Shown here: positions 44,440-57,340 of the stretch, one piece after another
How the letters are laid out: the number at the start of each line of letters is the position of its first letter
Numbering within the stretch: position 1 is the first letter of the stretch
NCBI RefSeq assembly: GCF_015694705.1
Contig: NZ_JADQDR010000007.1
Span: 62,001-126,000 of the forward strand
Reading direction: 5' to 3'
Source of the DNA: Pontibacter rufus
Lineage (GTDB): Bacteria; Bacteroidota; Bacteroidia; Cytophagales; Hymenobacteraceae
Length of the DNA: 64,000 nucleotides
Position numbers and translations under genes: made by a program
Notes under the pieces: model-generated
The model's input: only the letters and a program-made list of their open reading frames with translations
Databases searched by the model: none
What the model was told of the DNA's origin: nothing

Positions 44440-44474
44440 TTTGTATACAGGTAAAATAAAAATTCGTATCTTTG
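44440..44474 (+). promoter_or_regulatory. Promoter of the cysH-cysD-cysN operon
   Basis: TTTG at 44440-44443, a 23-base spacer and TATCTTTG at 44467-44474 match the Bacteroidota -33/-7 consensus TTTG/TAnnTTTG. Transcription should begin near 44480, about 35 bases before the SAM riboswitch. The minus-strand sulfur operon has a promoter with the same spacing. Confidence 0.75.
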
Positions 44475-44513
44475 TAGGGCAGAACACATTCATACATGTA
44501 TCAGGTTCTGCAG

Positions 44514-44617
44514 AAATTTATAAAGAAGAGGCGAGAGACTAGGCTCCCGGACCCTCTGGCAACCACCGCATGGAAGGTGCCAAATCCTATCCCGAACGAA
44601 CGGGAACATATAAATTT
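44514..44617 (+). promoter_or_regulatory. SAM-I (S-box) riboswitch, plus-strand sulfur operon
   Basis: All helices of the S-box can be placed. P1 is AAATTTATA (44514-44522) with TATAAATTT (44609-44617), nine perfect pairs. P2 uses AGAGG (44527-44531) with CCTCT (44553-44557). P3 is GGCAACC (44558-44564) with GGTGCC (44576-44581), and P4 is TCCCG (44590-44594) with CGGGA (44601-44605). Conserved single-strand parts such as AAGAGGCGAGAGA and CTCTGGCAACC match the S-box pattern. The same motif occurs on the minus strand at 55362-55468. SAM binding should lock P1; the leader ATG begins 7 bases after P1. Confidence 0.87.
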
Positions 44618-44624
44618 AATAGCA

Positions 44625-44771
44625 ATGCAAACGAAAGTACACGCATCATCAACCATTACAGACCGCCGGCTTCACACGCCGGGCATCTCCTCCTCTCTTA
44701 TTGTTGCCGGATCAAGTATGCCAATTCAGCAAACACCTTTTTATAGCTGTTGTTGCTGTTGCATGTGCTAG
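44625..44771 (+). CDS. Polycysteine leader peptide of the cysH operon (48 aa)
   Basis: A 48-residue frame from ATG 44625 to TAG 44769-44771. It begins MQTKVHASSTITDRRLH and ends PFYSCCCCCMC: cysteines at 42-46 and 48, encoded by TGT TGT TGC TGT TGC ATG TGC. Apart from the tail the peptide is plain and has no domain. Its place, between the SAM riboswitch and cysH, and the terminal cysteine run point to a regulatory leader: ribosomes should stall on the Cys codons when Cys-tRNA is short and so change the fold of the RNA downstream. Its counterpart lies on the minus strand at 55236-55355. A longer frame from 44496 runs through the riboswitch and is not meaningful. Confidence 0.85.
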   Translation: MQTKVHASSTITDRRLHTPGISSSLIVAGSSMPIQQTPFYSCCCCCMC

Positions 44772-44837
44772 TTACTGGTACTAACCCCGTCAGTTAAGCC
44801 CTGTACCGTTTCACTACGGCAGGCCGTGTTTTATTTT
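44771..44837 (+). promoter_or_regulatory. Candidate attenuator with alternative hairpins and terminator
   Basis: Directly after the leader stop, short complementary segments alternate: GTTA 44771-44774 or GTTA 44793-44796 can each pair with TAAC 44782-44785, and GGTAC 44777-44781 pairs with GTACC 44803-44807. Then ACGG 44816-44819 can pair with CCGT upstream (44806-44809) or downstream (44824-44827). The downstream choice is followed by a T-rich run (44829-44837), so it may be a terminator. A ribosome stalled on the Cys codons would cover the first segments. The stems are short, so support is moderate. Confidence 0.5.
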
Positions 44838-44983
44838 GTCCATGCCCTGTTTTTATAAATTTATTTTTAGCCGTTTTGCAGCCGCCACGGCCGTCAAACG
44901 TCTGGAATAGCATACCTGCAGGCATCAGGCAATTACTGAGCAGCACGTCATTAAATCACACCAGGAATTTATCCTATTTATAC

Positions 44984-45703
44984 ATGAGTCATTTACTTGC
45001 TTTAGAAACCAGTATCCCTGCCCTGCTTGCCGATTTGCAAGGCTTGCCGGCAGCAGCAGGCCTGCGTTATCTGGCTGATAAATTCAGCGGCACGATTGCC
45101 TTCTCTTCCAGCCTCGGCATCGAAGACCAGTTGGTAACGCATTACATTTTCGACAACAAACTGCCCATACGGGTGTTTACACTGGACACGGGCCGCCTTT
45201 TCAACGAAACGTATACTTTGCTGCACAGAACCAACCAGCGCTACGACCAGAAAATAGAAGTATACTTTCCGAAGCATGAGGCTGTGGAGCAGCTGCTGCA
45301 CAACAAGGGCCCGCAGAGCTTCTATGAGTCCCTGGAAAACCGCAAAGAGTGTTGCTTTATCCGTAAAGTGGAGCCGCTAAAGCGGGCGCTGCAGGGCGTA
45401 CAGGTATGGGTAACGGGCCTCCGTGCCGATCAGTCGGATAATCGCCAGAGCATGCAGCTGCTGGAGTGGGATGATAATTTTAAAGTCATCAAGTATAACC
45501 CGCTGCTGGATTATACTTTAGACGATGTGCGCGCAGCCATAAAGGAACACAACATACCCTATAACACCTTGCACGACAAAGGCTTTGTGAGCATCGGCTG
45601 CGCCCCCTGTACCCGCGCCATCCGGGAAGGCGAGAATTTCAGGGCCGGCCGCTGGTGGTGGGAAGACAACTCCAAAAAAGAATGCGGCCTGCACGCCCGG
45701 TAA
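44984..45703 (+). CDS. cysH: Assimilatory adenylyl-sulfate (APS) reductase
   Basis: A 239-residue CysH-family reductase turning APS into sulfite and AMP. It has both cysteine pairs that hold the [4Fe-4S] cluster of the APS-using type, Cys123-Cys124 (KECCFIRKVEP) and Cys206-x-x-Cys209 (GCAPCTR), and the catalytic Cys234 in KKECGLH. PAPS-specific enzymes lack the cluster pairs, and no cysC APS kinase is present in the operon, so APS is the expected substrate. The frame is open to 44876, but the family begins near the ATG at 44984. First structural gene after the riboswitch and leader peptide. Confidence 0.93.
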   Translation: MSHLLALETSIPALLADLQGLPAAAGLRYLADKFSGTIAFSSSLGIEDQLVTHYIFDNKLPIRVFTLDTGRLFNETYTLLHRTNQRYDQKIEVYFPKHEAVEQLLHNKGPQSFYESLENRKECCFIRKVEPLKRALQGVQVWVTGLRADQSDNRQSMQLLEWDDNFKVIKYNPLLDYTLDDVRAAIKEHNIPYNTLHDKGFVSIGCAPCTRAIREGENFRAGRWWWEDNSKKECGLHAR

Positions 45704-45706
45704 ATC

Positions 45707-45779
45707 AGACAAAGGACTGATTGACAAAAGACAAAGGAGTTCTTTACTAAGCCGTCTTTTGTCAATCAGTCCTTTGTCT
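45707..45779. repeat. Perfect 26-bp inverted repeat between cysH and cysD
   Basis: Arms 45707-45732 and 45754-45779 are exactly complementary over 26 bases, with a 21-base loop. It begins 3 bases after the cysH stop codon and ends 51 bases before the cysD start. As RNA it would be a very stable hairpin inside an operon. Confidence 0.85.
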
Positions 45780-45830
45780 AGCAGTCACTTGTCAAAAGAA
45801 GAATACGAGAATCAATATAAGAATAAAGAA

Positions 45831-46739
45831 ATGAGCACAAGACATCTTGATTACCTTGATCAGCTGGAGGCAGAAGCTATCCATATTATGCGCGAGGTAG
45901 CGGGGCAGTTCCAGAAACCGGCGCTGCTGTTTTCGGGTGGTAAAGATTCTATTACGCTGGTGCGCCTGGCTGAAAAGGCATTTCGCCCGGGCAAGTTTCC
46001 GTTTCCGCTGGTGCATATCGATACTGGCCATAATTTCCCGGAAGCCATCCAGTACCGCGACGAGCTGGCCGAACGCTTGGGCGAAAAGCTGATTGTGCGC
46101 CACGTAGAAGATACCATCAAAAAGCAAAGCCTGTCGGAGCCGACCGGCCGCTATGCCAGCCGCAACGGACTGCAGACCTATACTTTGCTGGAAACGATTG
46201 AGGAATTTGGCTTTGATGCCTGCATTGGCGGCGCCCGCCGCGACGAGGAAAAAGCCCGTGCCAAGGAACGCATCTTTTCAGTGCGTGACGAGTTTGGCCA
46301 GTGGGACCCTAAACGCCAGCGTCCCGAACTGTGGAATATTTACAACGGCCGTGTCCGCAAAGGGGAGAATGTGCGCGCTTTCCCTATCTCTAACTGGACG
46401 GAGCTGGACGTATGGAACTACATCAAGCGGGAGAATATTGCCCTGCCTAACATATACTATACCCACGAGCGCGAGTGCCTGGTACGCGACGGCAAACTGA
46501 TGGCTTCGTCTGACTTTATTTTCCGGGAGCCGGAAGATGTAGTGGTAAAAAAGCAGGTACGTTTCCGCACCGTAGGCGACATGACCTGTACCGCTGCCGT
46601 AGAATCGGTGGCTTTTGACGTGGACAGCGTAATTGCTGAAATTCTGGAATCAAAATTGAGCGAGCGCGGCGCCACCCGTATCGACGACAAACTATCGGAA
46701 ACCGCTATGGAAGACCGTAAAAAAGGAGGCTATTTTTAA
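45831..46739 (+). CDS. cysD: Sulfate adenylyltransferase subunit 2
   Basis: A 302-residue ATP sulfurylase catalytic subunit; with CysN it makes APS from ATP and sulfate. The PP-loop is ALLFSGGKDSITLVRLAEKA; LVHIDTGHNFPEAIQYRD and IGGARRDEEKARAKERIFS are family blocks, and the C-terminus ends in KKGGYF. The frame reaches upstream to 45759, but that part runs into the inverted repeat, and MSTRHLDYLDQLEAEAI at 45831 fits the family start. cysN follows 1 bp after the stop. Confidence 0.96.
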   Translation: MSTRHLDYLDQLEAEAIHIMREVAGQFQKPALLFSGGKDSITLVRLAEKAFRPGKFPFPLVHIDTGHNFPEAIQYRDELAERLGEKLIVRHVEDTIKKQSLSEPTGRYASRNGLQTYTLLETIEEFGFDACIGGARRDEEKARAKERIFSVRDEFGQWDPKRQRPELWNIYNGRVRKGENVRAFPISNWTELDVWNYIKRENIALPNIYYTHERECLVRDGKLMASSDFIFREPEDVVVKKQVRFRTVGDMTCTAAVESVAFDVDSVIAEILESKLSERGATRIDDKLSETAMEDRKKGGYF

Positions 46740-46740
46740 C

Positions 46741-47994
46741 ATGGATATACTACGATTTATTACCGCTGGCAATGTAGACGACGGCAAAAGCACCCTCATC
46801 GGCAGATTGCTGTACGATACCAAACAGATATACCTCGACCAGCTCGAAGCCATGGAAAGCTCCGGCCGCGTAAATGAAGATGGCGACGTAGACTTGTCGC
46901 TGCTGACAGATGGATTAAAAGCAGAGCGCGAGCAGGGCATTACCATCGATGTGGCTTATAAGTATTTCAACACCGATAAGCGCAAGTTTATTATTGCGGA
47001 TGCACCGGGCCACATACAGTATACCCGCAACATGGTAACGGGCGCTTCCAACTCTAACCTATCTATTATTCTGGTAGATGCGCGCAAAGGCGTGCAGGAG
47101 CAAACGCGCCGCCACTCCATTATCTCATCGCTGCTGGGCATTCCGCACCTGGTTATTTGCGTCAACAAAATGGATCTGGTGGGCTACGACGAAGCTGTTT
47201 TCAACCAGATTGTAGCAGACTATACCCGCTTCTCCAAGAAGCTGCACACCCGCGACATCACGTTTATACCTGTCAGCGCGTTGCGAGGCGACAACATTGC
47301 GGCCGCGTCTACGGGCATGCCGTGGTACAAAGGACCCAGCCTGCTACAGCACCTGGAGGAGGTTCCGGTTGCTTCAGATGTAAACCTGGACGATGCCCGT
47401 TTCCCGGTGCAATACGTTATCCGTCCGCTTACAGCCAGCCACCACGACTACCGCGGCTATGCCGGCAAAGTTATCAGCGGCACTTACCGCAAAGGCGACA
47501 AAGTAAGCATTATGCCATCCGGCCAAATTTCTACAGTTAAATCCGTAGAGATAGGCGGCTCAGTACTGGAAGAAGCTTTTGCTCCCATGTCGGTGGTATT
47601 ACAGCTGGAAGATGAAGTAGACATCAGCCGCGGCGATGTGATAGTGAAGCAGGCAGATAACCTGGAAGTAGCGCAGGAATTTGAAGCACTGGTATGCTGG
47701 ATGCACAACAAACCCCTAAAGTCCGGCGCCAAATTGCTGCTGCGCCACAATGCTTCGGAAACGCGCTGCGTGGTAAGGGAGATACAGTATAAAGTAGATG
47801 TAAATACCCTCGACCACGAGGAAGATATAGAAGAGGTACAGCTCAACGACATCTGCCGTGTGCTGGTAAAAACCGCTGCGCCATTACTGCTCGACAAGTA
47901 TGAAGACAATCGCTCCAACGGCGGGTTTATACTTGTAGATGAAACCTCCTTCGCCACTGTTGGCGCAGGTATGGTGGCGGAAGTTGTGTATTAA
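46741..47994 (+). CDS. cysN: Sulfate adenylyltransferase subunit 1 (GTPase)
   Basis: A 417-residue EF-Tu-like GTPase subunit that drives APS formation by CysD. G motifs: GNVDDGKST (P-loop), ADAPGH (G3) and VNKMD (G4), then two beta-barrel domains. The length is that of CysN alone; there is no fused CysC kinase domain, in line with an APS-using CysH. Third structural gene of the plus-strand operon. Confidence 0.96.
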   Translation: MDILRFITAGNVDDGKSTLIGRLLYDTKQIYLDQLEAMESSGRVNEDGDVDLSLLTDGLKAEREQGITIDVAYKYFNTDKRKFIIADAPGHIQYTRNMVTGASNSNLSIILVDARKGVQEQTRRHSIISSLLGIPHLVICVNKMDLVGYDEAVFNQIVADYTRFSKKLHTRDITFIPVSALRGDNIAAASTGMPWYKGPSLLQHLEEVPVASDVNLDDARFPVQYVIRPLTASHHDYRGYAGKVISGTYRKGDKVSIMPSGQISTVKSVEIGGSVLEEAFAPMSVVLQLEDEVDISRGDVIVKQADNLEVAQEFEALVCWMHNKPLKSGAKLLLRHNASETRCVVREIQYKVDVNTLDHEEDIEEVQLNDICRVLVKTAAPLLLDKYEDNRSNGGFILVDETSFATVGAGMVAEVVY

Positions 47995-48015
47995 ACGTTA
48001 CTTTGTACCTGGATG

Positions 48016-48154
48016 CCGCAAGTTTAGCGACAGCGTAACTTGTGGCTTTTCATGTGGCAAGTTTTTAACTTGCGAGCATATATAGTATAACCTGCGCAAG
48101 TTGAAAACTTGCTGCCATTTACTACCACAAGTTACGTTATCGCTAAACTTGCGG
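48016..48154. repeat. Nested inverted repeat after cysN
   Basis: Outer arms of 30 bases (48016-48045 and 48125-48154, beginning CCGCAAGTTTAGCGA) match with two or three mismatches. Inside lies a second pair made of GGCAAGTTTTTAACTTGCG and its near complement. The whole element is about 139 bp and lies between cysN and osmC. It looks like a compound palindromic repeat and would form a long cruciform or RNA stem. Confidence 0.8.
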
Positions 48155-48178
48155 GATGAGCCTTTTATAGCAGTCTTT

Positions 48179-48186
48179 TATCTTTG
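48179..48186 (+). promoter_or_regulatory. Candidate -7 box for osmC
   Basis: TATCTTTG matches TAnnTTTG and lies 9 bases before the ATG. No TTTG at the expected -33 distance, so the promoter is only half supported; it may give osmC expression independent of the riboswitch. Confidence 0.4.
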
Positions 48187-48195
48187 TCAAAAAAT

Positions 48196-48621
48196 ATGCA
48201 GGTAAATTTAAAACGTATAGATCAGGATTTCCATTTTGAGGCGACGGGCACTTCAGGCATCGCCGTCAACATCGACGGCTCCCCGGAGATTGGCGGCCAC
48301 AATGCGGGCGCGCGGCCGATGGAACTGTTGCTGATGGGCCTGGGTGGCTGCAGCGCTATCGACGTTATCCAGATTTTAAAAAAGCAGCGCCAGCAGATTG
48401 ATTCTTTTGATATCAAAGTAGATGCGGAACGCGAAAGCGGCCAGGTACCCTCCGTATTCAAAAGCATCCATGTGCATTTTATACTTGGCGGCCCGCTCGA
48501 AGCAGAAAAAGTACGCAAGGCCATTGACCTGTCGCTGGAAAAATACTGCTCGGTAGCAGCCATACTTTACAAAACCGCCACGATCACGCATTCTTTTGAA
48601 GTAAATCCGACAGCAAGTTGA
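48196..48621 (+). CDS. OsmC family protein
   Basis: A 141-residue OsmC/Ohr-fold protein. The family cysteines are present: GGCSAIDVIQILKKQRQ (first Cys) and the second in EKYCSVAAILYKTA. Such proteins reduce organic hydroperoxides or act on sulfur compounds; the place at the end of the cysteine operon fits a redox or sulfur role. The start is taken at ATG 48196 rather than the TTG at 48184, which lies inside the -7 box. Followed by a strong terminator. Confidence 0.9.
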   Translation: MQVNLKRIDQDFHFEATGTSGIAVNIDGSPEIGGHNAGARPMELLLMGLGGCSAIDVIQILKKQRQQIDSFDIKVDAERESGQVPSVFKSIHVHFILGGPLEAEKVRKAIDLSLEKYCSVAAILYKTATITHSFEVNPTAS

Positions 48622-48671
48622 TTTGGAAATTTGGAGAGGTGCTATACGTCACCGCTCCCGCTATCAAGTAT

Positions 48672-48706
48672 AAAAGCCGTTCGTCAGAGTTTGACGAACG
48701 GCTTTT
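48672..48706. terminator. Intrinsic terminator after osmC
   Basis: AAAAGCCGTTCGTCA (48672-48686) pairs exactly with 48692-48706 around a 5-base loop, with T and A runs at the ends. It closes the plus-strand sulfur operon and may also serve the convergent metZ operon. Confidence 0.9.
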
Positions 48707-48741
48707 GCCTTCCTGACTATACTATACTTATACTTTCCAAA

Positions 48742-48822
48742 GACCTCGCGGTGTGCGCAGCTCCTGCGAGCATCTGAGTACTGGCATCAGACGCTCGCAG
48801 GAGCTGCGCACGCTGCGAGGTC
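48742..48822. repeat. 36-bp near-perfect inverted repeat between the convergent operons
   Basis: Arms 48742-48777 and 48787-48822 pair over 36 bases with one A-C mismatch and two G-T wobbles; the loop is 9 bases. Lying 16 bp past the metZ stop, it probably terminates the minus-strand operon, but it is far longer than a terminator needs to be. Core sequence GCGCAGCTCCTGCGAGC. Confidence 0.8.
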
Positions 48823-48838
48823 AGGTTATACTTTATTT

Positions 48839-50011
48839 CTAAACCGTTACTTTCTCCAGCGCCTGCTCGATGTCTTCGATGATGTCGTTTATACTTTCCA
48901 GTCCAACCGAAATACGGATCAGGCCGGGCGTGATGCCGGTTGCCTGTCTTTCTTCTTCTGTCAGTTTGGAATGTGTGGTAGAGGCCGGATGCGTTACGAT
49001 GGTACGGGTATCGCCCAGGTTAGAAGTAATGCTGATCATCTTCAGGTTATCAATGAACTGCTGCGCTCCTTTATAGCCGCCTTTCACCGAAAAAGTAACA
49101 ATGCCACCGCCCTGCTTCATCTGCTTTTTAGCCAGTTCATACTGCGGAAACGAAGGCAGAAACGGATAGCGCACTTCTTCCAGGGCATCATTCTTCTCGA
49201 GCACCTGCGCCAGTTGCAGCGCGTTTTCACAATGCCGCTCTATGCGCAGCGACAATGTTTCGAGGCTTTTTGAAATCACCCAAGCATTAAACGGCGACAT
49301 GGCAGGCCCGGTATGGCGCGCAAAGAAACGTATCTCCGCTATCAGATCTTTGCGGCCTACAACCAAGCCACCCATTACGCGACCCTGGCCATCCATGTAT
49401 TTGGTAGCCGAATGCACTACCAGGTCGGTTCCATAATCGGTAGGCGTCTGCAGTATGGGTGTGGCGAAGCAGTTATCCACCACCAGAATCAGGTTATACT
49501 TGCGTTTGAGCTCTCCCAGCCATTCCAGGTCAATCAGCTCGAGGCCCGGGTTAGAGGGGCTTTCCACCACAATCATTTTGGTAGCCGGCGTAATCAGGCT
49601 TTCCCAGGTTTCGGGCGCACTGGCATCGGCGTACGAATGCGTGATTCCCCACTTCGCAAATACACTTGTAAGCAGCTGGTGTGTAGAACCGAACACCGCA
49701 CGGGCAGCCAGCACATGGTCGCCGGACTGCAGCAGCGCCGCCATACTCGAAAATACGGCAGCCATTCCGGATGCAAAGGCAAAGCCATCTTCCGCCTTTT
49801 CCAGGTAACACATTTTATCCAGCAACTCATCCACATTCGGGTTGGAGAAGCGCGAGTAAATATTACCTTCTTCCTCATTGGCAAACACCGCCCGGGCCTG
49901 TTCCGCATCTTCAAACATGAAACTGGAGGTCAGGTATAAGGGCACCGAGTGCTCGCGGTTCTGTGAGCGTTTTGCCTGTATGCGGATGGCTTTTGTTTCT
50001 TTATCAGACAT
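48839..50011 (-). CDS. metZ: O-succinylhomoserine/O-acetylhomoserine sulfhydrylase
   Basis: A 390-residue PLP enzyme of the Cys/Met metabolism family that adds sulfide to an activated homoserine to give homocysteine. Pyridoxal lysine is Lys204 in HSATKYMDGQGRV; other blocks are IYSRFSNPNVDELLDKM, FASGMAAVFSSMAALL, and SNLGDTRTIVTHPASTTHSKL. The pattern is of MetZ. It lies last in the minus-strand operon and uses the sulfide made by the upstream reductase, which explains why SAM controls the operon. Confidence 0.9.
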   Translation of the reverse strand: MSDKETKAIRIQAKRSQNREHSVPLYLTSSFMFEDAEQARAVFANEEEGNIYSRFSNPNVDELLDKMCYLEKAEDGFAFASGMAAVFSSMAALLQSGDHVLAARAVFGSTHQLLTSVFAKWGITHSYADASAPETWESLITPATKMIVVESPSNPGLELIDLEWLGELKRKYNLILVVDNCFATPILQTPTDYGTDLVVHSATKYMDGQGRVMGGLVVGRKDLIAEIRFFARHTGPAMSPFNAWVISKSLETLSLRIERHCENALQLAQVLEKNDALEEVRYPFLPSFPQYELAKKQMKQGGGIVTFSVKGGYKGAQQFIDNLKMISITSNLGDTRTIVTHPASTTHSKLTEEERQATGITPGLIRISVGLESINDIIEDIEQALEKVTV

Positions 50012-50094
50012 GAATCAGATTGTTGATAGTTGAATGCTTGGTTGTTAAATTGTTAAATGGGTTTGCTGGTGCGGGCTTGCAGTTGGTATTTATT

Positions 50095-50139
50095 CTGCAG
50101 GTGCTGGTGCGAGCTGCAAGCTCGCACCAGCACCTGCAG
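50095..50139. repeat. Perfect 21-bp palindromic repeat
   Basis: Arms 50095-50115 and 50119-50139 (core GGTGCGAGCT/AGCTCGCACC) are exact complements with a 3-base loop. Related cores occur at 60008-60030, 60220-60242 and 60267-60289, so this is a dispersed palindromic element. It lies between the fusion gene and metZ inside the minus-strand operon. Confidence 0.8.
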
Positions 50140-50222
50140 AGGAGCCATAGGCGCGCATCTGCAGATGCAAATTATTGAATGGAGGCAGTATGAACGGTTT
50201 AACCATTCAACAATCTACACCA

Positions 50223-51746
50223 TCACCCCATAAACGCCATAAAGATAAGGCGCAAACTAACAACTATCACCACAATGCCCACCGTAATCATCATTGTTTT
50301 AACCGGAAGCCTGCGGGCAAGTATAGCGCCAAGGGGCGCTGAAATCATGCCGCCAATAATGAGTCCGACTATAACCTGCCAATGCGAGATACCGGCGAGT
50401 GAGATAAAGGTAGCCGCGCTGGCAAACGAAACGAAGAATTCAGCCAGATTTACGGAGCCGATTGTGTACATCGGGTGCCTGCCTTTGGCTATCAGCGTGG
50501 AAGACACAATCGGACCCCAGCCGCCGCCGCCAATCGCATCCAGAAAACCGCCCGCAGTGGCCAGAAATCCCAGACGCTTGACAGGGCTCTTCCGGTTGCG
50601 CTTGCGCAGGGTTTTGCGGATAATCAGCACGCCCAGAACTAAAGTATAGCAGGCCACCACAGGCTTGATGAGGTAGAGGTATGCTTCCATACTATAAAGC
50701 AGGTAGGCACCGCAAATGGCACCCAGCACCCCCGGCAGCACCAGCGATTTGAACAGCTTGCTGTTTACGTTGCCAAACTTTAGGTGCATCAGTCCGGAAA
50801 CGCCCGAAGTAAAAATTTCGGAGGCGTGTACGCTCGCGCTGGCCGCCACAGGCGTTACGCCGAAACTGAGCAGGAAAGTGGTTGCGCTGACGCCATAGGC
50901 CATCCCCAGCGCACCGTCAATCAGTTCGGCTACAAAGCCGGCCAGTATGTATACCAGTATGTCTGAATCTACCTGCGACACCGCCTGCATCGCGAAATGG
51001 GCAATGCTGCGCATGGGGATGTAACTGAACAGCAGGTGCCCTGTTACCATCAGGGAAATAGCCGCCAGCACCAGCAACAAAATATACTTTGTACTGTATC
51101 TGCTCTGCTTCTTTGTGGCCGGGCTTACCAGCACATCCGTAATTTCGTTCAGGCGCTTTACTTTTTCTGAGAAATCGCCCGAAAGCTTTGCGCGGATCTG
51201 CGTGAGTTTGTCCAGCACCTGTTCCATCTCGTCTGGCAAGGCTTCGTTCAGTACTTCTTTTATCCGCTTCGCCACCGTTGGTGACTTGCCATTGGTGGAA
51301 ATGGCCAGCTTCAGACTTCCCTTCTGCACAATGGAGCCCAGATAGAAATCGCATTGCTCCGGTGTATCGGCTACATTGGCCAGTATTTTTCGCGACTTAG
51401 CCAGATCCCGGATAGCGCGGTTCAGCACCGCATCGTCGGTTGCAACCAGCACAATATCTTTGCCCGTCAGATCTTCGTCTGCAAAATCACGCTGCTGCAG
51501 CGCCAGGTTCGGATGCAGCGCGGCCAACGTATAAATCTCAGGGTGAATGTCGGGCGCTACCAGCGTTACAGCTGCTTGCGGGCTGTTTTTAAGTATGGCA
51601 TTCAGCTTTTCCAGGCCCACGGCGCCGCCACCAACTACCAGCGTCTGCAGTTCCTCGAGCTTTAAAAAAACCGGGAAAAGCGGATTGGCCGGCGGCGCGA
51701 CACTGGCGGGCAGTGTTGTTTCAGCTGCTTGAGAGTGGGTGCTCAT
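50223..51746 (-). CDS. Fused siroheme-type dehydrogenase (CysG N-terminal) and TSUP/TauE permease
   Basis: A 507-residue fusion. Residues about 20-210 match the precorrin-2 dehydrogenase/ferrochelatase half of CysG: PVFLKLEELQTLVVGGGAVG (NAD-binding), VLVATDDAVLNRAIRDLAKS, NVADTPEQCDFYLGSIVQKG and LAISTNGKSPTVAKRIKEVL. Residues about 222-507 form eight or so membrane spans of a TSUP/TauE permease (FVAELIDGALGMAYGVSATT, FLDAIGGGGWGPIVSSTLIA). The first half should finish siroheme for sulfite reductase next door; the second is probably a sulfate importer or a sulfite exporter. It follows the uroporphyrinogen methyltransferase gene (21 bp apart). The frame is continuous with no sign of a join error. 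Confidence 0.9.
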   Translation of the reverse strand: MSTHSQAAETTLPASVAPPANPLFPVFLKLEELQTLVVGGGAVGLEKLNAILKNSPQAAVTLVAPDIHPEIYTLAALHPNLALQQRDFADEDLTGKDIVLVATDDAVLNRAIRDLAKSRKILANVADTPEQCDFYLGSIVQKGSLKLAISTNGKSPTVAKRIKEVLNEALPDEMEQVLDKLTQIRAKLSGDFSEKVKRLNEITDVLVSPATKKQSRYSTKYILLLVLAAISLMVTGHLLFSYIPMRSIAHFAMQAVSQVDSDILVYILAGFVAELIDGALGMAYGVSATTFLLSFGVTPVAASASVHASEIFTSGVSGLMHLKFGNVNSKLFKSLVLPGVLGAICGAYLLYSMEAYLYLIKPVVACYTLVLGVLIIRKTLRKRNRKSPVKRLGFLATAGGFLDAIGGGGWGPIVSSTLIAKGRHPMYTIGSVNLAEFFVSFASAATFISLAGISHWQVIVGLIIGGMISAPLGAILARRLPVKTMMITVGIVVIVVSLRLIFMAFMG

Positions 51747-51767
51747 CGTGTTGTTTATACTTTAGGT

Positions 51768-52601
51768 TCAGGCTGCAACAAATCCTTGCTGCTGCAGGCC
51801 GAATTCCAGGGTATAGCGCAGCGATGGATGATAGGCCACCACCTCTCCGATAACGATGATGGCTGGCGCACCCACGGCATTCGCCTGCACGCGTTCCACA
51901 ATGTTATGGATGTTGCCGATGGCGATTTTCTCATCCGGCATTGATCCGTTCTGGATAACGGCAACAGGCAAATCGGCCCTGCCCGCCAAAGTATAAATTT
52001 CGGCAATCTGCGCCAGTTTGCCCAGCCCCATCAGGATAATAACGCTCGCGCTGGATTGTGCAGCGAGCGGAATGTCCTTTGAGATTTCGCCGGAACTGGT
52101 GGTGCCCGTAATCACCCAGAAGCTCTCGTTCACGCCACGGATGGTGAGCGGAATCTGCTGCAATTCCGGCACGGCAATGCTGCTGGAAATACCCGGCACA
52201 ACCGCCGTTGCGATGTTAAACTTATCCGCATGTGCAAGTTCCTCATAGCCGCGGCCAAACACGAAAGAGTCGCCGCCCTTCAGGCGCACCACATGGCCGT
52301 GCGACAAGGCAAACTTTACGATGAGTTCGTTGATCTCGCCCTGCTTGTAGCTGTGCTGCCCGGCACGCTTGCCCACGTATACTTTAAGCGCCGCTGCGGG
52401 TGCATACTGCAACAACTCCGGGCTTATGAGTGCATCATACAGCACCACATCGGCCTGCTGCAGGGCTTTTATGCCTTTCATGGTGATAAGGTCCGGATCG
52501 CCGGGACCGGCACCTACCAGCGTTAGCTTTGGCTGTTTATCTGAAGCAGGCTGCGCCGGTCCTTGCCGGCTGCCTGTTATATCTTTTCTTGTTAATGCCA
52601 T
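51768..52601 (-). CDS. cobA: Uroporphyrinogen-III C-methyltransferase
   Basis: A 277-residue SAM-dependent methyltransferase making precorrin-2 for siroheme. Family blocks: LTLVGAGPGDPDLITMKG at the start, VVLYDALISPELL, VRLKGGDSFVFGRGYEE and VVPGISSSIAVPELQQIPLTIRG. It supplies the neighbouring CysG-like dehydrogenase and finally sulfite reductase. Separated from the reductase gene by 80 bp in the same operon. A short N-terminal extension of about 22 residues (TGSRQGPAQPASDKQ) precedes the domain. Confidence 0.95.
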   Translation of the reverse strand: MALTRKDITGSRQGPAQPASDKQPKLTLVGAGPGDPDLITMKGIKALQQADVVLYDALISPELLQYAPAAALKVYVGKRAGQHSYKQGEINELIVKFALSHGHVVRLKGGDSFVFGRGYEELAHADKFNIATAVVPGISSSIAVPELQQIPLTIRGVNESFWVITGTTSSGEISKDIPLAAQSSASVIILMGLGKLAQIAEIYTLAGRADLPVAVIQNGSMPDEKIAIGNIHNIVERVQANAVGAPAIIVIGEVVAYHPSLRYTLEFGLQQQGFVAA

Positions 52602-52681
52602 CTTCTTACTAGAGTTTTGAATGACTGAATTTTGAATGAGTGAATAATGAAATCTAATTAGTCATTCATTCTAAATTTAAA

Positions 52682-54799
52682 CTATTGCGCTACTGCGGTC
52701 AGTTCGTGTTGCCGCTTGCGGTAGCTGGTAGCTTGCTGCAGGAACAGCAGCGCTCCTTCTAAATAGGCCCGTGCAAATTCCTCGTCCGGCTCGTGCTGGT
52801 TTAGCTGCGTTACCGTGCTTTTAAAGTCCGGCTCAAACGTGAATTCGCCTGTCGCCACAAAGTGCGTATCGAAGTCCTGCATAATGCCAATCTGCGTATT
52901 ACACTTTACATCTTTACCCAGCAGCAATGCCTTGGCTGTACTAATGTAGGAACCATAACCATAGTAGATGGCATCAGCAAAACGTTTGTCTTCCAGTGCT
53001 TCCGCCGCCCACTCCAGTTTCTCATCAGATTCATACAGCAGCGTCGCTACCAGGTCAATTATCACACCCGCGCATTCTCCCACGCCTATGGCAGGCGCAT
53101 AGGCATCCTGGTGCCCCCAGTCCACAAAGTCATCTGCAGTCAGGTTGCTGATATCGGCCAGCGGCTTCAGCATCTGGTAAAAATAATCCTTGCCCTGCCG
53201 GTCGTAGTAATCATTGAAGCGCTCGTTGTCCTGTTTGTTTGCTTTATAGTCGTTGATAACGTAGCGCAGCACATCCGTTGCTTTCTTGGCAGGCACTTTG
53301 AGGATTTTTTGCGCGGCGCGGCCTTCGCCGTTGCCCACGGTACCGCCACCCAGCAACACCTGCAGGGCCGGCAGCACGCTCTTTCCGCTCTTCAGCGATG
53401 AGCCATGAAAGCCGATGTTGCTGATGCCATGCTGCCCGCAGGAGTTCATGCAGCCGCTTATCTTTATTTTAATGTCGGTGTTAAAGATCAGCTCAGGGTA
53501 CTCGCTGATGATTACGTCTTCCAGCACCTTCGCAAACGTGGTACTGTTGGAGATGCCCAGGTTACAGGTATCCGTGCCGGGGCAGGTAGTTACGTCGGCC
53601 ACACTGTTAAAGCCGGGTGCTGCCAGACCCAGTGCATCCAGCTGCGAGAAGAAGTATGGCAGGGCTTCCTGCTTCACATACTTCAGTAACAGGCCCTGGT
53701 TTTGGGTTACCCTTATCTCGTCGGCGGCAAAATCATGCACCAGCGGCGCCAGTTGCCGGGCGGTAGCGGTACTGACATCGCCTGTCGGCACTTTTACATA
53801 GATACCGTAGTATCCCTCCTGCTTCTGGGCAAACACGTTGGTTTTCAGCCAGCTGCCATACTTTTCTGTGTTGTCAATCACGAAATCAGGAATCGGCTTC
53901 GGTGCAGGCAGGGCAGGCGTAAAGTCCGCTGTTTTATCTACTTCAAAGCTATGTACTTTCAGCGCCGCGGCTTCTTCTTTCACCAGGCGCATCACCTCTT
54001 CCAGCCCAAGCTTGTTCAGCACATACTTAAATCTGGCCTTGTTGCGGTTAGTCCTTTCGCCGTAGCGGTCAAACACGCGGATAATATTTTCAATCAGCGG
54101 AATTGCCTGATCCTCCGGCAGGAAATCATAGAGCGGCTGCGCCAGCATCGGCTGCGCGCCCAGGCCACCGCCGATTACCACCTTAAAGCCACGCACGGTT
54201 TCGCCGTTTACCTCCTGCAGCTTAGGTATAAAACCAACATCGTGGATGTAGGTCATGGCTGTATCGCTGTCGCTGGAGGAGAACGTTATCTTAAACTTGC
54301 GGCCCATTTCCTGGCAAACAGGGTTGCGCAGGAAATAACGGAAAGTCGCATCGGCATAAGGCGTCACATCAAAAGGCTCATTTGGATCTATGCCTGCTTC
54401 GGGCGAGGCCGTAACGTTACGCACCGTGTTGCCACAGGCCTCCCGAATGGTAATGTCTTCCCGGTCGAGTTTTGCCCATAGTTCCGGCGTTCTGTCCAGG
54501 CTTACGAAGTGCAGCTGAATGTCCTGGCGCGTGGTCAGGTGCAGGTTGCCGGTTGCATACTCGTCTGATATGTCCGAGATGTGGAGCAGTTGCTTTGTCG
54601 TCAGCCTGCCGAACGGCAGTTTGATGCGAACCATCTGCACACCCAGCTGGCGCTGCCCATAGATGCCGCGCGCCAGGCGCAGGCTTTTAAACTTATCTTC
54701 CTGGAGCTTGCCCTCGCGGTATTGCCGGATTTTTTTCTCCAGTTCAATGATGTCTCTTTCTACAATTGGGTTATCTATTTCTGATGTGAAACTTTGCAT
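52682..54799 (-). CDS. Assimilatory sulfite reductase with C-terminal HEPN-like domain
   Basis: A 705-residue siroheme/[4Fe-4S] reductase. Two ferredoxin-like and two nitrite/sulfite reductase repeats come first (LPFGRLTTKQLLHISDISDEY, LHLTTRQDIQLHF, REACGNTVRNVTASPEAGID). Cluster cysteines are Cys406 and Cys412 (TTCPGTDTCNLG) and Cys450 and Cys454 (GCMNSCGQHG), the correct spacing. After about residue 560 a helical HEPN-like tail follows (GECAGVIIDLVATLLYESDEKL to ALLFLQQATSYRKR). The surrounding cysH, cysDN, siroheme and metZ genes make sulfite the expected substrate rather than nitrite. No cysJ flavoprotein gene is nearby, so ferredoxin may be the donor. First structural gene of the minus-strand operon. 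Confidence 0.92.
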   Translation of the reverse strand: MQSFTSEIDNPIVERDIIELEKKIRQYREGKLQEDKFKSLRLARGIYGQRQLGVQMVRIKLPFGRLTTKQLLHISDISDEYATGNLHLTTRQDIQLHFVSLDRTPELWAKLDREDITIREACGNTVRNVTASPEAGIDPNEPFDVTPYADATFRYFLRNPVCQEMGRKFKITFSSSDSDTAMTYIHDVGFIPKLQEVNGETVRGFKVVIGGGLGAQPMLAQPLYDFLPEDQAIPLIENIIRVFDRYGERTNRNKARFKYVLNKLGLEEVMRLVKEEAAALKVHSFEVDKTADFTPALPAPKPIPDFVIDNTEKYGSWLKTNVFAQKQEGYYGIYVKVPTGDVSTATARQLAPLVHDFAADEIRVTQNQGLLLKYVKQEALPYFFSQLDALGLAAPGFNSVADVTTCPGTDTCNLGISNSTTFAKVLEDVIISEYPELIFNTDIKIKISGCMNSCGQHGISNIGFHGSSLKSGKSVLPALQVLLGGGTVGNGEGRAAQKILKVPAKKATDVLRYVINDYKANKQDNERFNDYYDRQGKDYFYQMLKPLADISNLTADDFVDWGHQDAYAPAIGVGECAGVIIDLVATLLYESDEKLEWAAEALEDKRFADAIYYGYGSYISTAKALLLGKDVKCNTQIGIMQDFDTHFVATGEFTFEPDFKSTVTQLNQHEPDEEFARAYLEGALLFLQQATSYRKRQHELTAVAQ

Positions 54800-55235
54800 G
54801 TTCTGAGTTCTTGTATGATGTATAATTTGCCCTGATGCCCTTCAATTCATATTTGCTGCCAGGCGTACAGAAGTTTACAGTAAAAAGCAATATATAATAA
54901 GATGACCGGGAATCAGCGGGAGCTATGACAACAGCGCCCCTGGCGCATGGTAGCTGAAAACTTTATCCCGGAAGTTTGAACAGCCATGCCGGCTGCGGAA
55001 AGTATAGGAAACTGCGCCGCAGAAGATACAAAGCGGTGCTGTTTTGATGTGTTTATGCTGGTTGTTGCTGCAATCATGGCAATAAGGCTGCGCACCCGAT
55101 GCCCGCATACAAAGTATAACCCGGCCAGCTAAAGGTGCAAAAACAAAATTATAAATGATGATAAGCCTGGTGAGACGAAAAGGCGGCCGTGTATAACTTA
55201 CTGTACGCGCATACTACCAGGAAAAGAGAGGTTCC
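54800..55235 (-). other. Long 5' leader between polycysteine peptide and sulfite reductase gene
   Basis: About 435 bp transcribed but non-coding. The hairpin GTTCC/GGAAC at 55231-55246 overlaps the end of the leader peptide and its stop codon. CCTGGT/ACCAGG (55166-55171 with 55216-55221, minus strand) could close a larger stem followed by a T-rich run (55138-55165), a possible terminator. Short frames in the rest have poor composition. Confidence 0.55.
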
Positions 55236-55355
55236 TTAGCAGGAACAGCAGCTACAGCAACAACAATGCATTTGCCAGGATGTGGCAGCAACAGGAGAAA
55301 AGTTATCAGAAACTTTAAGCTGACAGGTAAGAGCGGTACTAACTGATTTGTTCAT
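55236..55355 (-). CDS. Polycysteine leader peptide of the sulfite reductase operon (39 aa)
   Basis: On the minus strand ATG 55355-55353 opens a 39-residue frame ending at TAA 55238-55236. It begins MNKSVSTALTCQLKVSDNF and ends QMHCCCCSCCSC, seven of its last nine residues being cysteine. The start codon lies 6 bases after the P1 helix of the minus-strand SAM riboswitch. The plus-strand leader (44625-44771) has the same place and the same kind of tail but otherwise different sequence. Likely a cysteine-sensing leader peptide controlling the downstream siroheme-reductase operon. Confidence 0.83.
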   Translation of the reverse strand: MNKSVSTALTCQLKVSDNFSPVAATSWQMHCCCCSCCSC

Positions 55356-55361
55356 GTTTTT

Positions 55362-55468
55362 AATTTATATTTTCCCTTTTGTTTGTTGGGCAGGACTTGG
55401 CACCTTTCCATGCGGATGGTTGCCAGAGGGTCACAGAGCCTGTTCTCTCGCCTCTTCGTCTATAAATT
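55362..55468 (-). promoter_or_regulatory. SAM-I (S-box) riboswitch, minus-strand sulfur operon
   Basis: The minus strand repeats the layout of 44514-44617: P1 from AATTTATA (55468-55461) with TATAAATT (55369-55362), the shared block AAGAGGCGAGAGA, the P2/P3 junction CCCTCTGGCAACC, CCGCATGGAA and GGTGCCAAGTCC, and a short P4 (CCC/GGG). Core sequences are identical or nearly so to the plus-strand copy, while loops and flanks differ, as expected for two functional copies. Confidence 0.87.
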
Positions 55469-55495
55469 TCTTGCGGGTAGCAATACTATTCGTTA

Positions 55496-55530
55496 CAAAA
55501 CTAGCAAATAAAATTGAGAAGTTTGTCAAA
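55496..55530 (-). promoter_or_regulatory. Promoter of the sulfite reductase operon
   Basis: On the minus strand TTTG (55530-55527), a 23-base spacer and TAGTTTTG (55503-55496) match TTTG/TAnnTTTG. Spacing is identical to that of the promoter at 44440-44474. Transcription should begin about 20 bases before the riboswitch. Confidence 0.7.
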
Positions 55531-55915: not shown

Positions 55916-57340
55916 ATGGTTACCAGAAGAGACTTTCTTAAAACCGGCGGTATTGCTGCCGCAGGCGTTGCCTCCGGCTTTTCGCTGACATCTTTCACGC
56001 TGCAGGACGCGCTGGTGAACCGGCGGCCGCCCCTGAACGAGCGGAATTTTACCAGCAAAGTGGTGGAGCAGAAAATAAAGGAGGTAAAGAAAGCCATTGG
56101 CGACAAGGAACTGGCCCAGCTCTTCGAAAACTGCTTCCCGAATACGCTCGACACCACGGTGAAGTACCAGGAAATGAATGGCAAACCAGATACCTTCGTT
56201 ATTACGGGCGACATCAACGCCATGTGGCTTCGCGACTCAAGTGCACAAGTATGGCCCTATCTGCCCTTTGCCAAAGAAGACAAGAAACTCCGTAAGATGC
56301 TGGCCGGCGTGATTAACCGTCAGGCAAAATGCATCCTGATTGATCCCTATGCCAATGCCTTCAACTTCGGACCAACCGGCAGTGAATGGGAAACCGACCT
56401 GACCGACATGAAGCCTGAACTGCATGAGCGCAAATGGGAAGTAGATTCGCTCTGCTACCCGATTCGCTTGGCACACGGCTACTGGAAAGCCACTGGCGAC
56501 ACCTCCTGCTTCGACGAGAACTGGGCAAAAGCCATGCAGTTGGTAGTTGATACTTTCCGGACGCAGCAGCGCAAAGAAGGCCATGGGCCTTACAAGTTTC
56601 AGCGCGTAACAGGCTGGCAAACCGATACGGTAGCCGGCGCGGGTTATGGCAACCCTATCCAGCCGATTGGCCTTATCTGCTCCACCTTCCGCCCTTCCGA
56701 CGATGCCACCACTTTCCTGTTCCTAGTGCCGTCTAACTTCTTTGCCGTGGTATCGCTAAGGCAGCTGGCAGAGATGAGTGAAAAAGTGCTGCACAACACC
56801 GCCCTGGCCGCTGACAGCACCAAACTGGCTGACGAAGTTGAGCAGGCGCTGCAAAAGTATGCCGTAGCGCCGCACCTCGATTTTGGTAAAATACACCCCT
56901 ACGAAGTAGACGGCTTCGGCAACAAACTGTTTATGGATGATGCCAACATCCCGAGCCTGCTGTCGCTGCCTTACCTGGGCTGCTGTCCTATTAACGATCC
57001 TATTTACCAGAATACCCGCAATTTCGTGCTCAGCCCCAGCAACCCCTACTTTTTCAAAGGCAAGGCAGCCGAAGGCATCGGTGGTCCGCACATAGGCCTG
57101 GAGATGATCTGGCCGATGAGCATTACCATGCGGGCACTTACCACCACCTCGGACGAAGAAATAAAGCATTGCCTCCAGATGCTGAAAACCACGCACGGCG
57201 GTACCGGCTTTATGCACGAGTCCTTCCACCAGGACAATCCCGAGAAATTTACGCGCAAGTGGTTTGCCTGGGCCAACACCCTGTTCGGCGAACTTATCCT
57301 AAAGCTCTACAACGAAAAGCCATACCTGCTGAAAGCATAA
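55916..57340 (+). CDS. GH125 exo-alpha-1,6-mannosidase, Tat-exported
   Basis: A 474-residue glycoside hydrolase of family 125, which removes alpha-1,6-linked mannose without a metal. Signature blocks: [65 protein letters not shown], and [21 protein letters not shown]. The N-terminus has a Tat-type signal ([21 protein letters not shown]) with twin arginines at 4-5, so the enzyme is expected in the periplasm. It stands 253 bp before a GH92 alpha-mannosidase gene, a natural partner for trimming mannans or N-glycans. Confidence 0.93.

Follow-up and report, generated by a model that had tools for sequence, protein, structure and literature searches.

Two convergent sulfur-assimilation operons face each other in the 64,000-nucleotide stretch of Pontibacter rufus DNA analysed here (the window; RefSeq assembly GCF_015694705.1, contig NZ_JADQDR010000007.1, positions 62,001 to 126,000), and the RNA leader of each carries an S-adenosylmethionine (SAM)-I riboswitch followed at once by a short open reading frame (ORF) that ends in a run of cysteine codons. 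We consider it quite probable that the pair works as a two-stage sensor, in which SAM would gate translation of the leader ORF, a shortage of charged tRNA-Cys would stall the ribosome within it, and the operon would be on only if both are low. A two-input circuit reading SAM and Cys-tRNA had been proposed for this island in a first-pass annotation made from the letters of the DNA; comparisons with related loci support it, and from them we infer serial control of expression. Two outcomes named in advance as refuting it, a missing covariance-model match for either RNA and a cysteine tail not conserved among relatives, did not occur.

The covariance model RF00162 matched at full length at both outer ends of the island, at 44515-44616 on the forward strand (71.2 bits, E 1.2e-14) and at 55362-55468 on the reverse strand (64.9 bits, E 8e-13), against a gathering score of 44.4. 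At gathering thresholds these were the only Rfam matches in the whole window, one per leader; a tandem-riboswitch logic gate was thus rejected, and the second sensor would be the ORF. The left aptamer has the P1 stem AAUUUAUA/UAUAAAUU, and the right aptamer a P1 of the same type. Behind the left aptamer lies an ORF of 48 codons (44625-44771, forward strand; MQTKV...FYSCCCCCMC*), which belongs to a conserved class and whose tail CCCCCMC occupies 44748-44768; behind the right aptamer lies one of 39 codons (55236-55355, reverse strand; MNKSV...MHCCCCSCCSC*), with its tail CCCCSCCSC at 55239-55265. The last 12 residues hold six and seven cysteines, respectively. The two riboswitches and the cysteine runs were therefore where the first-pass annotation had placed them. 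It had also put the ORF starts 6-7 bases after P1; this is correct for the right leader (ATG at 6 nt) and slightly short for the left (8 nt).

To place these leaders among their relatives, we collected SAM-I matches from overlapping genome samples of the family (119 of 120 genomes with a match), the order (186 of 241) and the class (218 of 296). The locus set (L001-L229, including the window's own two) comprised the best-scoring matches together with 140 hand-picked stretches, others being passed over, and the counts below therefore compare classes and are not prevalences. Of the 229 loci, 224 were analysed; five (L039, L165, L199, L200 and L220) were not oriented by our regular expression and were dropped from every count, at the cost of at least one positive, since the L200 site, met later as L325, has both riboswitch and cysteine leader.

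The loci divided sharply by the P1 stem of the aptamer. P1 was of the UUUAUA/UAUAAA class in 110 loci, including three AAAUUAUA variants, and 93 of these had a cysteine-tailed leader. In the remaining 114 loci P1 was mostly of the YUUAUC/GAUAAG type; one of them, L160, satisfied a loose definition of a leader, its GTG start lying 26 nt further along and its cysteines being scattered, and was treated as spurious. Where the first ATG fell 3 to 20 nt past P1, it opened an ORF whose final 12 residues included at least three cysteines in 78 of 88 UUUAUA-class loci and in none of 15 others. The background for such a tail, taken from other ATG-initiated ORFs of 15-60 amino acids in the fetched loci, was 66 of 3973 (1.7%), and for four or more cysteines it was 11 (0.28%). 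The strongest single test of the leader class was the reading frame of the repeat itself: 87 UUUAUA-class loci combine a start codon with a run of three or more TGY codons 40-190 nt after P1, and in 86 of them the run was in frame 0 and open. The other 23 loci of the class lacked either the run (20) or the start (3), and no such run was found in that interval in any of the 114 loci with other stems.

Four UUUAUA-class riboswitches with P1 TTTTTATAA (L100, L111, L129 and L134) are without a cysteine leader and precede what is, by elimination, a metZ-like gene; these aptamers may control a start codon directly.

Within the 93 leaders, the start codon (81 ATG, 12 GTG) lies 6-12 nt after P1 in 85 cases, with a median of 9 nt. 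The final residue is cysteine in 76, and between three and nine of the last 12 residues are cysteines; over the last five positions the cysteine frequency is 0.66-0.88, compared with 0.015 upstream of the last 12. The tails use both codons, TGT 333 times and TGC 225 times, and because the two are mixed it is the amino acid, not one RNA sequence, that is kept. The N-terminal parts vary between gene groups. What is conserved is the cysteine tail, its position at the stop codon and the close spacing to P1, much as the first-pass annotation had supposed when it took the tail of two otherwise unrelated peptides to be the feature retained.

The genome from which the window comes has five SAM-I matches, and a cysteine-tailed ORF stands behind four of them. 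Besides the two operons of the window, these are a metY gene, whose leader ends ...MAMCCCCC* and which is followed by an alpha/beta hydrolase (metX-like) and a homoserine dehydrogenase, and a RimK-like ATP-grasp gene, whose leader ends ...AHCCFC*. The fifth, in front of metH, has no cysteine-tailed ORF behind it. On contig C2 of this genome (L230, 507-2533), a luciferase-like monooxygenase gene follows the ATP-grasp gene, both behind a SAM aptamer and cysteine leader. A second match to five TGY codons and TAA (G000:C20:35642-35659) also occurs in this genome, outside the SAM-linked set.

The same division of targets was seen more widely. Among the first 137 oriented loci, of which 25 had no gene assignment, the cysteine leader was present before cysH (15/15), the ATP-grasp gene (13/13), metY (35/40) and the sulfite reductase gene (1/1, the window's own), and was absent before metH (0/31) and metZ-like genes (0/12). 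Because the leader accompanied the ATP-grasp gene in all 13 assigned loci, an undescribed role in sulfur metabolism is suggested for this gene. Pfam searches on ten loci returned one cysH, three Cys/Met-metabolism pyridoxal phosphate (PLP) enzymes, two amino-acid permeases, two Na/H-antiporter-family proteins, an alpha/beta hydrolase and an M14 peptidase. For ten more loci the best NCBIfam match was an O-acetylhomoserine/O-acetylserine sulfhydrylase in six, SusC-type receptors in two, a permease in one and a RimK-type ligase in one, all but one of these being partial ORFs or below curated cut-offs; two of the sulfhydrylase loci (L059 and L216) have no cysteine tail. Separately, we noted SAM aptamers with cysteine leaders before Na/H-antiporter-family proteins, amino-acid permeases and SusC/RagA-type receptors (L032, L092, L066, L097, L126, L120 and L135). 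These transporters and receptors are candidates for the uptake of cysteine, methionine or organosulfur compounds.

We also approached the question from the gene, by inspecting up to 900 nt upstream of the 80 best named relatives of the window's CysH, a design that misses control further up an operon. All 11 relatives with Pontibacter in their title had a SAM-I core and a cysteine leader upstream, as judged by regular expression, and both of those submitted to Rfam (L232 and L248) match there too. Of the other 69, 67 had neither a SAM-I core nor a cysteine leader within those 900 nt. One from Larkinella knui (L274) matched the SAM regular expression and not Rfam, and in a Hydrotalea sp. (L296) MKNLAHIKYICCCCC* is encoded immediately upstream of cysH, without a riboswitch.

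Leaders of this last kind bear most directly on what the tail senses. We searched for five TGY codons followed by TAA as a gap-free pattern, with the reversed pattern as a control, counting by eye in the overlapping class and order samples. The pattern occurred in 38 of 296 class genomes (49 places, versus 14 reversed matches) and in 45 of 222 order genomes (61 places, versus three), seven of the latter places being a single tandem repeat (G133:C5:11211-14270) with matches at multiples of 234 bases, from which the one locus examined (L351) has no in-frame ATG. Many of the 59 loci examined (30 from the class, 29 new from the order) were out of frame, without ATG or within long ORFs. Eleven in-frame short leaders came with an Rfam SAM match (L325, L331, L335, L348, L349, L356, L360, L364, L369, L370 and L363); L331, at 45.6 bits, is just above the cut-off, the start codon of L363 is ambiguous, and L335 and L360 duplicate earlier loci. 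L327 was the metY leader of the window's genome met again. Further in-frame short leaders had no Rfam SAM match: two before the cysteinyl-tRNA synthetase gene cysS (L323 and L324), with six to seven cysteines at the stop codon, three before cysH (L340, L366 and L367), one before a PhyH gene (L328) and one before a TonB receptor gene (L342). L366 and L367 belong to g6, a different genus in the same family as the window; cysH thus has SAM aptamer and cysteine leader in one genus and the cysteine leader alone in a sister genus. In all, the cysteine-only leaders before cysH span Hydrotalea, the sister genus and another family. The riboswitch-free leaders before cysH and cysS are our best evidence, and they argue that the tail senses cysteine by itself and that the aptamer forms a module detachable from it.

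By a hand tally, riboswitch-linked cysteine leaders are spread over at least 13 family codes: f1, f2, f4, f5, f9, f14, f15, f18 and f22 within the order and f23, f39, f59 and f81 elsewhere in the class, with f39 depending on L331. We think it probable that here a riboswitch regulates an amino-acid-sensing leader, and that this serial gate for SAM and Cys-tRNA is a general sulfur regulator of the Bacteroidia, built by joining aptamer and leader, and that within one family it has been acquired or lost as a unit.

The arrangement suggests how such a gate could work. Because the leader start abuts P1, SAM most simply would control translation of the leader: with SAM bound, the AU-rich UUUAUA/UAUAAA stem would close and exclude the 30S subunit from the leader start, so that the target of the riboswitch would be the short ORF and not the operon gene itself. 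Low SAM would permit translation of the ORF, and the ribosome would then stall in the cysteine tail if charged tRNA-Cys runs short. SAM is an end product of these genes, and a leader left untranslated is for that reason presumably 'off'; the gate would therefore be on only if SAM and Cys-tRNA are both low. A ribosome stalled at the 3' end of the leader would alone hold the downstream RNA 'on', both an untranslated and a fully translated leader being 'off'. The off step is the least certain part of the model; we prefer termination by Rho in a leader RNA that is rich in C and poor in G, with alternative RNA pairings as the main rivals. Rho is encoded in the genome. The ratio of C to G is 1.94 at -120 to -60 from the leader stop and 1.4-1.7 after the stop.

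Several points weigh against our reading. A weak terminator-like hairpin is present in both leaders of the window. The RNA from -60 to +120 around the leader stop exceeds shuffles in folding stability (mean z -1.39 +- 0.18, n=93), which a pure Rho model does not need. Of the 110 UUUAUA-class loci, 17 have no cysteine tail, five of them before metY by elimination. Finally, in a crude alignment of 76 related pairs most indels were not multiples of three, within the leaders (143/210) as well as after the stop codon (354/456). The converse counts, 67/210 and 102/456 indels that were multiples of three, were considered as a mark of N-terminal coding constraint and set aside as too weak to use, as were the substitution rates by codon position in leaders (0.081/0.104/0.134), the 76 pairs being non-independent.

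If the off step is not Rho, the leaders could be classical attenuators in which SAM gates translation as above and the stalled ribosome chooses between an antiterminator and an intrinsic terminator. We regard this as possible though tentative. The local stability just described is in its favour, as are the hairpins of the window. On the left, a terminator-like hairpin at 44815-44828 on the forward strand, followed by TTTTATTTTG, lies 43 nt past the leader stop; on the right, the hairpin GTTCCTGCTAAGGAAC (55231-55246, reverse strand) contains the last cysteine codon and the stop codon, and is followed by CTCTCTTTTC. Hairpins after the leaders had been part of the first-pass annotation and were its weakest detail, in that terminator-like sites are present and yet hardly exceed shuffles (left, two, one of them on the other strand, versus 0.5 +- 0.8; right, one versus 0.7 +- 1.1). 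Across the class such sites follow 4 of 83 cysteine leaders (shuffles 5.2%), compared with 12 of 44 class B SAM-I loci (shuffles 0.7%); the scan is insensitive, as that positive class indicates, and misses loops above 8. At this sensitivity the sites are not enriched, and we do not favour intrinsic terminators as the general platform of the cysteine leaders. Comparative folding was similarly divided. Stems inside the leader, around its stop codon and past it are common to eleven metY leaders, with two-sided changes in 4 of 32 pairs, whereas a second metY set of five leaders had two-sided changes in none of 36 pairs, and no consensus structure emerged from the wider metY (26 loci) and cysH (9) sets, and scarcely any from that of the ATP-grasp gene (10).

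A second possibility, which we think unlikely, is translational attenuation, in which the cysteine-codon run would hide the first start region of the operon by pairing and a stalled ribosome would release it. The cysteine genes of Mycobacterium smegmatis are so regulated according to PMC13236596. By eye, the run can pair with CAACA-type elements in L296, L323 and L331, where the gene starts about 42-60 nt past the stop, and L331 folds better than shuffles (z -2.38); L296 and L323 do not (z 0.24 and 0.65), and many leaders are more than 100 nt from their gene. In L001 and L005 inspection by eye suggested that the run pairs with RNA further downstream; this was not upheld as a property of the class, where the duplex z was -0.33 +- 0.10. 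Nor was a complement to the run within 200 nt downstream: its longest match averaged 6.14 versus 5.98 in shuffles, and reached p <= 0.05 in 4 of 93 leaders, where 4.65 are expected. L005, the right leader of the window, is among these four.

It is improbable that the two elements are independent, with SAM acting through a separate expression platform and the leader simply coming after it. In these genomes class B SAM-I riboswitches do often carry intrinsic terminators of their own, but the UUUAUA-class aptamers adjoin the leader start with the narrow spacing described above, and the terminator-like sites behind those leaders do not rise above shuffles. Less credible again, and in our estimate highly improbable, is a functional cysteine-rich peptide, binding metal or thiol, that has come under SAM control by happenstance. 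Cysteine clusters can bind metals, and the ORFs are open and plausibly translated; the N-terminal parts nevertheless differ between gene groups, the tail varies in length and the targets are mostly cysteine and sulfur genes, cysS included. That the TGY repeats are chance or simple-sequence artefacts, as the reversed matches of the class survey and the many loci out of frame or within longer ORFs might suggest, is already refuted for the riboswitch-linked set by the in-frame runs and mixed codons, and the order survey had few reversed matches.

Should the serial gate for SAM and Cys-tRNA be confirmed, two great classes of bacterial RNA sensor, the riboswitch and the ribosome-mediated attenuator, would stand in series on one RNA, and would do so recurrently, in four operons of the window's own genome and in at least 13 family codes of the Bacteroidia. 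The result would be a two-input sulfur regulon of the Bacteroidota with natural single-input controls, SAM-only before metH and cysteine-only before cysH of the sister genus and cysS. It would also suggest sulfur roles for little-known targets such as the ATP-grasp/luciferase-like pair, SusC-type receptors and permeases.

The remaining features of the island agree with the first-pass annotation: the operons are convergent, and Pfam domains bear out the gene calls. On the forward strand, the left operon comprises a cysH-like 3'-phosphoadenosine/adenosine 5'-phosphosulfate (PAPS/APS) reductase gene (44984-45703; PF01507, E 4.3e-47), a cysD-like gene (45759-46739; PF01507), taken from the first TTG and perhaps with an internal true start, a cysN-like GTPase gene (46741-47994; PF00009, PF22594) and an OsmC-like gene (48184-48621; PF02566). 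The right operon, on the reverse strand, begins with a sulfite/nitrite reductase-type gene (52682-54799; PF01077, PF03460), followed by a cobA/SUMT-like tetrapyrrole methylase gene (51768-52601; PF00590), a CysG N-terminal/TauE-SafE fusion (50223-51746; PF13241, PF14824, PF01925) and a metZ-like Cys/Met metabolism PLP enzyme gene (48839-50011; PF01053). Divergent from the right-hand leader is a GH125 alpha-mannosidase gene (55916-57340, forward strand) with a borderline TAT-signal match.

Each aptamer is preceded by the promoter that had been read there, TTTG-N23-TAnnTTTG of Bacteroidota type at 44440-44474 (forward strand) and TTTG-N23-TAGTTTTG at 55496-55530 (reverse strand). TAnnTTTG at -12 to -5 is the sigma-A consensus reported for a Flavobacterium (PMC9723704). 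With a spacer of N21-25, the two-box motif lies within 110 nt upstream of 23 of the 93 cysteine-leader riboswitches (shuffles 0.10) and 9 of the 131 other SAM-I loci (shuffles 0.40). The -7 box alone occurs upstream of 60/93 and 81/131, and because it is common to both groups we take the two-box motif as a promoter mark that is not specific to the cysteine-leader class.

In seven class B SAM-I riboswitches of the family (L006, L015, L016, L018, L024, L029 and L031) a terminator-like hairpin lies directly behind P1, with a loop side CTTATC/CTTGTC that could re-pair with P1. As judged by eye, these genomes would thus hold another type of SAM-I platform besides the cysteine leader.

Polycysteine leader ORFs are known from Actinobacteria (PMC1262725; Canestrari 2020, as cited in PMC13236596). 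The window's leaders share with cysteine attenuators a short ORF and a cysteine-codon run near the stop, before cysteine genes, and the run is in frame and conserved in relatives. We found no description of a SAM riboswitch joined to a cysteine leader in the open-licence literature, as far as its accessible text goes, and an earlier description elsewhere is possible; the term 'leader peptide' is absent from PMC2211319, on S-boxes in Bacteroidetes/Chlorobi, and from PMC3766115, on the S-box in several phyla. PMC9723704 mentions, in general terms, leader-peptide attenuation upstream of amino-acid operons in a Flavobacterium.

In the Actinobacteria (PMC1262725), runs of cysteine codons also lie near the stop codon of leaders before cys genes, with no obvious terminator, and Rho-dependent termination has been proposed there. 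Those leaders belong to another phylum, and no riboswitch is mentioned with them in the part of the paper accessible to us; the mycobacterial ones are called leaderless, whereas the Bacteroidota ORF starts behind an aptamer of about 100 nt. The uORFC-8-2 attenuator of Rhodobacterales (PMC8632094) similarly has cysteine codons in an upstream ORF (uORF) before the cysteinyl-tRNA synthetase gene, but with two tandem cysteine codons and an intrinsic terminator, in contrast to the six to seven cysteines at the stop codon of the Bacteroidota cysS leaders.

Other systems join a riboswitch to a small ORF. In the B12 riboswitches of M. tuberculosis (PMC11260477), riboswitch and uORF share one leader and translation of the uORF alters output; there, however, the main mode of action of the ppe2 uORF is termination-reinitiation, and the metE uORF lies inside the aptamer. 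A polyproline stretch ends the ppe2 peptide, although amino-acid sensing is not described for it in the accessible text. The Mbox riboswitch of M. tuberculosis (PMC12810186) directly controls a small ORF, with Rho-dependent termination, but its ligand is Mg2+, its conserved peptide is of unclear role and no codon-run sensor is described for it in the accessible text. The SAM-II riboswitch of Sinorhizobium (PMC9373788) joins control of translation to premature termination, although the aptamer is of another class and the regulated start is an in-frame second start of the gene itself, with no amino-acid leader. As for the SAM-I (S-box) family, RF00162, the window aptamers score high within it and, unlike its usual members, abut the start of a leader peptide rather than a terminator or the gene's own start.

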